In this document: positions 41,702-43,273 of the stretch, in pieces
How positions within the stretch are numbered: position 1 is the first letter of the stretch
Layout of the letters: each line of letters opens with the position of its first letter
Notes under the pieces: generated by a model
Databases searched by the model: none
What the model saw: the letters and a program-made list of their open reading frames with translations, nothing else
Told to the model about the DNA's origin: nothing
NCBI RefSeq assembly: GCF_029961155.1
Contig: NZ_JASBRH010000008.1
Span: forward strand, 124,001 to 188,000
Source of the DNA: Pontibacterium granulatum
GTDB lineage: Bacteria > Pseudomonadota > Gammaproteobacteria > Pseudomonadales > Balneatricaceae
DNA: 64,000 bases
Direction of reading: 5' to 3'
Made by a program: the position numbers and the translations under genes

Positions 41702-42232
41702 TCAGGCTACTGAATCCAGTTCTTCGATGGTCAGGTTGTCGTTGGTGAATACACAGATGCCAGCGGCGATGTGCAGACTTTTCTCTACGATATCGCGGGC
41801 GCTCAGCTCGGTGTTGTCGTTCAGTGCTCGGGCTGCAGCCAGGGCGAAGTTACCGCCGGAACCTATAGCAATGACGCCGTCTTCCGGTTCAATTACATCG
41901 CCGTTACCGGAGATCAGGTAAGTTTTTTCACTGTTAGCCACCAGCATCAGTGCTTCCAGGCGGCGCAGTACGCGGTCGCTACGCCATTCGCGTGCCAGGT
42001 GGATCACGGCATTCACGATGTTGCCCTGATGTTTGTCCAGCTGCTGCTCAAACAGGTCTCGCAGGGTGATGGCGTCGGCAGTAGAACCGGCAAACCCGGT
42101 TACCACATCGTGTTTGGGCAGGCGGTTTACTTTCTTGGCACTGCCTTTCATTACGGTGTTGCCCAGGGATACCTGACCATCACCGCCGACAACAACTTTG
42201 TCACCGCGGCGTACTGAAACAATGGTAGTCAT
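41702..42232 (-). CDS. hslV: HslV, peptidase subunit of the HslVU protease
   Basis: A 176-residue proteasome-like peptidase. The catalytic Thr2 follows the initiator Met ([30 protein letters not shown]); [18 protein letters not shown] and [32 protein letters not shown] are typical. The pair is usually heat-shock controlled, but only 37 bp separate its start from an IS5-like element, so its promoter must lie in or across that element. Confidence 0.97.
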
Positions 42233-42269
42233 TAAGCGCTGAACCTTTTGGTTAATGTTCGAATGATAA

Positions 42270-42533
42270 GGAAGGTGCGATTACGTCCTGTGACTGCTCT
42301 GCAAGTCCTTAAGCCTGTAGATGCTAGGCGCAGTTTGCAGGTAATGGCCGTAGCCCTTAGCAAAAACTGCAACACCGCAGATGCAGGCTTAAGGGCTTGC
42401 CCTTTGGGGCTTTCGGGAAGATACACACTCGGTGTCAGCGCTTTTTGTAAGGTCTAGACATTACTGCAAAACGCTTCCTTGATTGTGAACCTTCCCGAAA
42501 GCCAGAGCCAAACAGGACGTGTTCGCACCTTCC
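42270..42533. mobile_element. IS5-type miniature inverted-repeat element (MITE)
   Basis: A 264 bp segment with terminal inverted repeats of 22 bp (20 of 22 identical), each starting GGAAGGTGCGA and ending CGTCCTGT; this closely resembles the IS5 terminal repeat. Flanking 4-mers are ATAA (42266-42269) and CTAA (42534-42537), a near match to the CTAA-type target duplication of IS5. There is no transposase. Inside are two more dyads: 17 bp arms at 42301-42317 and 42384-42400 (one mismatch) and perfect 13 bp arms at 42408-42420 and 42491-42503. It sits between hslV and the FtsN-like gene. Confidence 0.8.
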
Positions 42534-42570
42534 CTAAGATATGGATGCGCTTGGGACTTTTTCAAGGGGT

Positions 42571-42598
42571 ACCCTGCACGCTTTGTTGCATGCAGGGT
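42571..42598. terminator. Hairpin after the FtsN-like gene
   Basis: ACCCTGCA / TGCAGGGT arms with a 12 nt loop. The T-run (ATTTT) follows on the plus strand, whereas the gene is on the minus strand, so its value as a terminator is doubtful. It lies in the 384 bp hslV/FtsN-like gap, most of which is the IS5-like element. Confidence 0.35.
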
Positions 42599-42616
42599 AT
42601 TTTGTGACTGTTGGGA

Positions 42617-43273
42617 TCAGTTGGCCTTGATCTTGAGCGGGAAAATATTCTGCTTGGCCAGCTTGTTGGTCGCGGCACTCAGTTCGGTGCGGTTCTTAAA
42701 CGGGCCGGTGCGCACACGGTACCAGATACCGTTGCCGCTGGAGGTCTTCTCGCTCCGTACATTGGGCAGACCCAACAGGATCAGTTGCGCGCGCATGCGA
42801 TCGGCATCCTGCGCACTGCGGAAGGAGCCCGCCTGCAACAGGTATTGCTGCTGCGCCACGGCGGTTTTAGGCGTGGACTTATACACCGTCGGGTCGGAGG
42901 TGGTCACCTCGCTCTTGGGCAGCATTTCGTAAAATTCGAAACGTTTCTCGTCTTTGGCGGTTTGCTGTGGTTGCTTCGCAGGTCTGGCTTTTTCCTGTGT
43001 TTGGGCAGCAGGTTTAGCCTCGGCTTTCGGTTTTGGGGTCGGTTTGCTGACCGTGGTCACCGTGCCGCTGCCAGGTTTTACCTGAACCAGGCTATAGAGC
43101 AGGTAGCCGAGTGCACCGGTCATCAGCACGGTCACCAGCAGCAGTTTAATTGGAAACGGTTTCTTCGCCTTTACCGGCGCTTTTTTGCGCGGCGGTGCCG
43201 GTTTCTTTGACGTATTGCGGGTGGCTGTTTTCCCATTGCGTTTTTTGGACGCGTAATCTTTGCGTGCAGCCAT
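42617..43273 (-). CDS. FtsN-like SPOR domain protein
   Basis: A 218-residue bitopic protein: very basic N-terminus (DYASKKRNGKTATRNTSKK), one TM (IKLLLVTVLMTGALGYLLYSLV), a Pro/Lys/Ala-rich linker, a FEFYEMLP segment, and a C-terminal SPOR domain (YLLQAGSFRSAQDADRMRAQLILLGL, WYRVRTGPFKNRTELSAATNKLAKQNI) that binds denuded peptidoglycan at the septum. The place before hslVU is that of ftsN in enterics and of a SPOR protein in Pseudomonas. It is a likely division protein. Confidence 0.87.
   Translation of the reverse strand: MAARKDYASKKRNGKTATRNTSKKPAPPRKKAPVKAKKPFPIKLLLVTVLMTGALGYLLYSLVQVKPGSGTVTTVSKPTPKPKAEAKPAAQTQEKARPAKQPQQTAKDEKRFEFYEMLPKSEVTTSDPTVYKSTPKTAVAQQQYLLQAGSFRSAQDADRMRAQLILLGLPNVRSEKTSSGNGIWYRVRTGPFKNRTELSAATNKLAKQNIFPLKIKAN

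Follow-up and report, generated by a model that had tools for sequence, protein, structure and literature searches.

A probable IS5-mobilised MITE between ftsN and hslV of Pontibacterium granulatum, with a two-hairpin core found across Pseudomonadota

The 264-bp segment lying between an ftsN-like gene and hslV in Pontibacterium granulatum, within the stretch of 64,000 nucleotides analysed here (the window), is probably a non-autonomous transposable element (MITE), which belongs to a family with a fixed plan, is tolerated at hslV and is moved in trans by IS5-family transposases. The plan of the family consists, in this order, of a terminal inverted repeat, a hairpin, a tiny hairpin, a second copy of the larger hairpin on the opposite strand and another terminal inverted repeat (Table 1). 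The element is a MITE in that it is short and non-coding, has inverted ends and the target duplication of the family, occurs in several copies and has empty counterpart sites. Its ends match those of the Escherichia coli MG1655 IS5A and of the IS5 copies of relatives, as expected of an element mobilised by the IS5 family. Support for mobility comes from the copies, from the empty sites in relatives and from the identical flanking repeats; that the movement takes place in trans is what we infer.

Table 1. Features of the element and its surroundings, in window coordinates
Feature	Position	Strand	Basis
Whole putative mobile element, 264 bp	42270..42533	- (the hslVU mRNA strand)	R1 full-length match 1-264, 276.3 bits (L001 1505-1768, minus strand)
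Left terminal inverted repeat, IS5-like	42270..42291	+	Sequence; E. coli IS5A end
Right terminal inverted repeat, IS5-like	42512..42533	-	Sequence
Left target repeat, ATAA (4 bp, imperfect)	42266..42269		Sequence; 1 mismatch to CTAA
CTAA, right copy of the target repeat	42534..42537		Sequence
Hairpin arm A	42408..42503	- (mRNA strand)	R2 match 42408-42502, minus, 73.6 bits
Hairpin arm B	42301..42400	+	R2 match 42301-42399, plus, 83.5 bits
Mini hairpin CCC-TTT-GGG between the arms	42400..42408		Sequence; 2 modelled pairs unchanged in 26/26 A1 sequences
hslV (176 aa), downstream gene	41702..42232	-	Translated; 87-96% match to relatives
ftsN-like gene (218 aa), upstream gene	42617..43273	-	Translated; matched to relatives
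Sigma32-type promoter of hslVU, intact	42539..42566	-	-35 CTTGAAA 42566-42560, 15 nt, -10 CCATAT 42544-42539

The original prediction had described inverted ends of 22 bp, identical at 20 of 22 positions and flanked by ATAA and CTAA, together with two internal dyads and a distance of 37 bp from the hslV start codon (ATG at 42232), and we confirmed all these features from the sequence. In particular, the extended arms (42267-42291/42512-42536) measure 25 nt and are 88% complementary, and the inner dyads occupy positions 42301-42324/42377-42400 and 42408-42430/42481-42503. The near identity of the ends with those of IS5 was borne out on the E. coli MG1655 IS5A, the end of which is GGAAGGTGCGAATAAG. 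The element was also correctly said to encode no transposase, for which 264 bp is too small: no ORF of at least 30 codons lies fully within it, and the five ORFs that overlap it count 34 to 137 codons.

A BLAST search of the element against its own genome gave 13 matches, one of which is the palindrome of the element itself, and 8 of the 13 are near full length, with 85 to 100% identity (self included). At E <= 0.1, the single-hairpin model R2 recognized 41 arms in the same genome, corresponding to 16 two-arm places and 9 lone arms. Reading of the lone arms revealed that L233 and L239 do carry a second, changed arm, that L010, L234, L237 and L238 are one-arm forms with both ends and that the other three are truncated or degenerate. 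Since the junctions of the one-arm forms fall, by eye, at CAGAG direct repeats, such copies do not prove the mobility of a one-arm element. Among the six own copies with a score from the full-length model R1, the window copy ranks third. We could also observe two tiny forms with both ends and almost no interior, one on contig C3 (L018 1500-1555, about 53 bp, with TTAG at both flanks) and one on contig C2 (L012 1501-1575, about 70 bp).

At the ftsN-hslV site, the element is absent from all 11 relative loci compared, which represent 7 distinct intergenic sequences and include that of Pontibacterium sinense (L044); L052 to L056 and L088 were dropped from the comparison, as these loci gave no hslV. 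The intergenic region measures 119 to 188 bp in these 11 loci versus 387 bp in the window. The nearest empty sites read ...CCATATCTAAGTCATTCG, and the filled site reads ...CCATATCTTAG-element-TTATCATTCG. The comparison with this genome and relatives suggested in the original prediction returned both further copies and empty sites, rather than a single-copy segment conserved in all relatives. The multiple copies, the 4-bp repeats and the element-free relatives uphold its proposal of a non-autonomous IS5-type element inserted between ftsN and hslV.

The original prediction had not recognized that the element is part of a very widespread family, the two-hairpin core of which is conserved and covaries. 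A BLAST search with the window copy as query gave matches in 12 of 57 relatives, own genome included. With R1, a covariance model built from an alignment of 26 full elements (A1), matches at E <= 0.001 were found in 81 of 293 genomes and 48 of 119 genera of the order, in 100 of 369 genomes and 80 of 272 genera of the class and in 68 of 398 genomes and 39 of 213 genera of the phylum; these sets overlap, and five to six candidates were scored per genome, so that the counts are not copy numbers. Five of the six named genomes matched R1, namely those of P. sinense, an uncultured Marinobacterium, Neptuniibacter caesariensis MED92, Neptuniibacter sp. PT1 and Neptuniibacter sp. CAU 1671, the sixth, Neptuniibacter N1Y108, giving no R1 match. 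The listed R1 matches mostly span the model in about 255 to 270 nt, and the phylum-level family f246 presents a series of matches of about 160 nt, which is the size of the one-arm form. Two genomes of the same genus (G004 and G003) carry elements (L057 and L068) in which the loop of arm A contains a common, CCCCAAGGGG-like insert of some 20 nt, an extended-loop subfamily in sister species. In the R1 listing, contig C1 of G108 (1609761-1610291) holds two tandem elements 3 nt apart, as would be expected if one element had inserted beside the other.

No Rfam match at E <= 1 was obtained for positions 42000 to 42800 of the window, and none of the 12 matches listed for 12 other loci falls on an element (they are tRNAs in the vicinity of L059 and weak matches beside L070 and L009), which rules out a known Rfam RNA on the elements of the 13 stretches tested. 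A blastn search of plasmids with four family members and a phage search with the window copy alone gave no match. No description of the family occurs among the matches listed in the open-licence literature, to which most subscription journals and ISfinder do not belong. It is, apparently, a very widespread type of MITE not described before.

Arm A and arm B, the latter taken as its reverse complement, represent the same hairpin, and the core consists of two inverted copies of this hairpin of about 97 nt. It follows that either strand, read 5' to 3', meets the arm in hairpin sense first. The hairpin presents a lower stem of about 20 pairs, an inner loop around AGGC / AAC, a middle stem and an apical stem-loop, with nearly invariant places in 64 arms at A25 G26 G27 C28, A68 A69 C70 and G74. 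In 68 non-redundant elements, the two arms measure 96 to 97 and 96 to 101 nt, and their stems occupy about 23 columns of the alignment. This set derives from the R1 alignment of 150 of 200 matches (both strands), which, counted with one strand per place and without L141 (203 nt), covers 99 places, 98 of them distinct; 31 of the 99 places were then removed as at least 90% alike.

Covariation in A1 is strong, with 57 of 86 pairs changed on both sides compared to 36.8 after shuffling. Paired cells amount to 95.2%, versus 78.9% in shuffled alignments and 31 to 46% in slid structures, a measure on which the structure, derived from A1 itself, is favoured. None of 500 shuffles reached any of the five measures. 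Furthermore, a gap-aware test of strand polarity, in which both G.T and A.C were scored as mismatches, detected a bias in the inner stem only. There, the ratio of G.T to A.C across the 68 elements is 67:2 for arm A on its own strand and 81:2 for arm B on the opposite strand; in the outer stem it is 17:5 for arm A and 17:22 for arm B, with no consistent strand bias. Counted by host family, G.T exceeds A.C in 20 of 20 families for arm A and in 26 of 27 for arm B, the remaining one being a tie. Simple end-in pairing gave a mixed outcome for arm B owing to slipped register, and the earlier strand test and the fold-energy test partly reflect common conserved loops and model fitting. The polarity of the inner stem fits selection on a single-stranded fold, which could be RNA or single-stranded DNA alike. 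In its behaviour, the outer stem resembles a DNA palindrome and, since it has no consistent strand bias, selection on the whole hairpin as RNA is not supported. The conserved part of the element is the core and not the ends, and the core is kept by structure.

Regarding the ends, the copies in the own genome are of two types, GGAAGGTGCGAA and GGGAACCTGCGAA, and some copies of the second subfamily (L233, L234 and L245, GGGAACCTGCGAA type) have 18 nt in common with the resident IS5 at its right end. Many other elements have unlike ends (GGGCACCTCTAA, CAGGCTG, TACTCTTTCAAGG, TGTCCTGTCCGG, TGTGGTGTAACG, TACATCATTTCAA and others), each pair matching at 13 to 16 of 16 positions. Similar cores may be bordered by rather different ends: the core and end identities are 86 and 56% for L148 versus L134, 86 and 56% for L169 versus L139 of the same genome, 82 and 38% for L169 versus L175 and 91 and 62% for L175 versus L134. 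All five elements fall within one well-supported clade of seven; the end-class labels of the tree merge CAGGCTG with the IS5-like ends, and the end changes were taken from the identity comparisons instead. Ends of the L148 and L175 type (CAGGCTG...GAAAAACCCC and CAGGCTG..GAAA-ACC) recur on IS5-family elements of two plasmids, from Methylomonas koyamae and Pandoraea oxalativorans, with CTAG on both flanks; L148 has CTAG and CTAA at its own flanks, and L175 has CCAG at both. The Methylomonas transposase is 23% identical to that of L082, and both contain the Pfam domains DUF772 and DDE_Tnp_1. Some ends of the family resemble those of a distant IS5 subgroup. If a gap is allowed, an alignment between CAGGCTG and GGAGCCT ends is possible. 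A search of plasmids with another two classes of ends yielded nothing beyond weak matches (E 1 to 4).

The search for an IS5 with matching ends, also suggested in the original prediction, gave different outcomes for the two subfamilies. For the GGGAACCTGCGAA subfamily, an IS with the 18 shared nucleotides is present in the own genome: it is the only two-ended IS5-group element found there (L082 1022-2190, contig C66), it has GGGAAC ends, and its transposase contains an early in-frame stop, given which the resident mobiliser may be inactive. For the GGAAGG subfamily of the window copy, no resident IS with GGAAGGTGCGAA ends was found in the 75-contig draft. The PF01609 matches of the own genome are one clear and one weak match with stops, the weak one without a matching pair of ends, and a short broken match to IS5 transposase occurs in addition. 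Relatives of the IS5 transposase are present in 23 of the 57 relatives (own genome included), and many of these IS5 copies have CTA/TTA-flanked ends of the form GGGAANNTGYGAANAAGTCC. IS5 also occurs in relatives where BLAST detected no element, and G036 and G035 contain elements and no match to the tested transposase. The only matches of a pattern search of G260, G280 and G097 for an autonomous IS with TGTCCTGTCCGG ends were four ends in G260, which belong to two elements. Moreover, R2 found no arm in 19 IS5 loci (E <= 1), which rules out that the element is an internal deletion of the IS5 copies tested.

At 98 distinct places, the 4-bp flanking repeats are identical in 43 cases and differ by one mismatch in 25, compared to 0 of 98 identical in the control. 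Direct repeats of 4 nt or more flank 62 of all 122 distinct elements; they contain CTAG in 31 cases and are of the YTAR type in 48. The other 60 elements have none; places listed twice were counted once (L124 = L077, L252 = L184, L254 = L199). The gene context was defined by ORFs of at least 100 codons, and 8 of the 98 places were set aside because their flanks were short or one side lacked a gene. The neighbours of the 90 usable places are co-oriented in 40 cases, divergent in 26 and convergent in 24, versus 44, 18 and 10 in other gaps of the same loci. Convergent gaps are thus somewhat commoner than in the control, to which we attach little weight. An ORF overlaps the element at 9 of the 90 places, the other 81 being without one. 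We also observed that at 12 of 88 gene 3' ends facing an element, the element starts exactly at the end of the ORF; an insertion at a stop codon can restore the stop, since the YTAR target repeats contain TAG or TAA.

At the hslVU locus, the suggestion that the element may carry or disrupt the heat-shock promoter did not hold and can be ruled out: the promoter is intact upstream of the element and is conserved in element-free relatives. By eye, a like sequence occurs at the same place in all 11 relative loci without the element, with variants (CTTGAAT once, a -10 CCATCT in five Neptuniibacter loci and a spacer of 16 once). The printed sigma32/RpoH consensus has CTTGAA at -35 (PMC10216364), and TTGAA and ccATcT are printed for RpoH in a paper that places hslV and hslU in the RpoH set of Pseudomonas aeruginosa (PMC9866376). 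The element starts 5 nt past the -10, directly downstream of the promoter, and thus transcription should begin at about its first bases. Counting from the -10 in this way, the element should make up the 5' leader of the hslVU transcript, with arm A first and in hairpin sense and arm B antisense.

As RNA on the hslVU strand, the element folds with z = -9.9, and none of 200 shuffles was equally stable. The predicted leader fold has 101 pairs inside the element and 0 to the outside, and the predicted openness around the start codon (mean of -20 to +12) is 0.43 with the element versus 0.43 without. A point against harmlessness is a terminator-like stem and T run inside the element, on the mRNA strand (42380-42367), which is at chance level (1 versus 0.8 in shuffles, sd 1.0). 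No sigma70-like promoter was found inside the window copy, the one copy examined. On these predictions, the hslV copy is most likely a tolerated passenger, the promoter remaining intact and the mRNA gaining a self-contained folded leader; at hslV, we are dealing with an ordinary insertion at an interesting place. Two further features of the region can be mentioned. A 64-codon frame (42232-42426, minus strand) starts with GTG in arm A, and its stop overlaps the start codon of hslV as TAATG; translational coupling is conceivable. A 12-bp inverted repeat, TACCCTGCACGC/GCATGCAGGGTA (92%, 42570-42599), in the interval from the ftsN stop to the hslVU -35 is a possible ftsN terminator or processing site.

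Other explanations deserve to be weighed. It is possible to hypothesize a structured-RNA module, in which the first arm of any transcript would be the hairpin strand and a host RNA-binding factor would protect, process or insulate the mRNA, making insertions in untranslated regions, hslVU included, harmless or useful. The strong covariation of the stems, the near-exclusive G.T over A.C of the inner stems in hairpin polarity, the mostly intergenic placement and the hairpin sense of arm A in the hslVU leader all agree with this idea, and other bacterial MITE-like repeats are reported to be transcribed in untranslated regions in the available text of PMC3446304. However, the outer stems have no consistent strand bias, there is no clear preference for gene orientation, no sigma70-like promoter lies in the copy examined, the access to the start codon is predicted not to change, and no Rfam family matches the elements tested; on balance, we regard the RNA module as rather unlikely.

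The lack of a consistent strand bias in the near-perfectly paired outer stems would instead be expected of neutral palindromes, where template switching at quasi-palindromes copies one arm of a stem onto the other and keeps the stems complementary without selection, and the one-arm junctions at CAGAG repeats are, by eye, as in hairpin slippage. Such copying does not protect the loop and internal-loop columns, yet these are among the most conserved across families, and the strand-specific wobble of the inner stems and the similar length over much of the class also speak against it, so that we consider this explanation improbable. Even less credit is due to the idea that the element is now a functional part of hslVU regulation in the host species, which we judge very improbable: its position at the expected +1, the good preservation of the copy in the R1 ranking and the 64-codon frame with its TAATG overlap are in its favour, but the element is absent from all the relative loci compared, further copies lie elsewhere in the genome, and no effect on start-codon access is predicted. 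As to the arms, a role of RNA in tolerance or the correction of palindromes are possible alternatives.

Some points stand against the preferred reading of a MITE moved in trans as well, namely that no resident IS with GGAAGGTGCGAA ends was found and the one two-ended IS5 has GGGAAC ends and an in-frame stop, that 60 of the 122 elements lack a direct repeat of at least 4 nt, that elements occur in G036 and G035 where the tested transposase was not found and in G260 without a same-ended IS found, and that IS5 occurs in relatives where BLAST detected no element. According to this reading, DDE transposases of several IS5-family subgroups would move the element in trans via its ends. At hslVU, the element lies directly behind the -10 of the sigma32-type promoter, between imperfect YTAR-type repeats. 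More speculatively, the arms might be retained because folding out of the duplex, as a cruciform or as single-stranded DNA, would bring the ends of the stiff 264-bp element together, and because a ligand might read the conserved inner loop of the hairpins; having one hairpin per strand would make the function of the arms independent of orientation. We propose this mechanism of the arms tentatively, as clearly less than an even chance. We give somewhat less than an even chance to the idea that the core is the evolving unit, a coding-free structured parasite across Pseudomonadota that would outlive any single transposase by exchanging or re-tuning its ends to suit different IS5-family subgroups, and whose strand-specific hairpins would be recognized by a factor, in the form of RNA or of single-stranded DNA.

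The usual view of MITEs is that of short-lived leftovers from a single insertion sequence. In a family whose core is kept by structure throughout the phylum while the ends change, the inside would be under selection. The 122 distinct elements provide a natural set of variants for asking what the non-coding interior of a transposon does, and hslVU provides a clear-cut example of a heat-shock transcript that starts with a long folded leader.

Regarding known systems, we know of no likeness, by eye, of the element to attC R/L boxes or self-cleaving ribozymes. With IS5A and the IS5-family element of the own genome, it shares the end (GGAAGGTGCGAATAAG), the YTAR-type flanks seen in the IS5 of relatives and, in some copies, 18 nt; different from IS5, the window element has no transposase, and the 19 IS loci contain no hairpin arm. 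REP dimers likewise consist of two inverted hairpin units and occur in many genomes, but, as described in the available text, their stems are of 5 to 13 bp, they carry GTAG or CGTC tags, and the GTAG ones are linked to tyrosine transposases (PMC3733652). The arms of 96 to 101 nt, the terminal repeats and the YTAR repeats rule out an identity with REP/REPIN. The repeats bcr1-bcr3 and bcr10/18 of Bacillus cereus are also intergenic repeats of untranslated regions, bcr1-3 being MITE-like and bcr10 and 18 having a conserved structure; however, they belong to another bacterial group, and the two-arm inverted design is not among the features described in the available text (PMC3446304). Further nearest literature, as far as its accessible text goes, comprises the stem-loop families of 40 genomes (PMC2267715), a review of MITEs (PMC10969869) and the MITEs of Thiomargarita (PMC4853749). 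As described in the available text of PMC3189936, MITEPsy1 of Pseudomonas syringae is likewise non-autonomous, has an IS5-like end (GGAAGGTCTGAAAAAGCC) and 4-nt repeats (CTAG or YTAA), and differs in its length of 100 nt, too short for two hairpins of about 97 nt, a comparison by description alone. MITEPsy1 was trapped transposing (PMC3189936).
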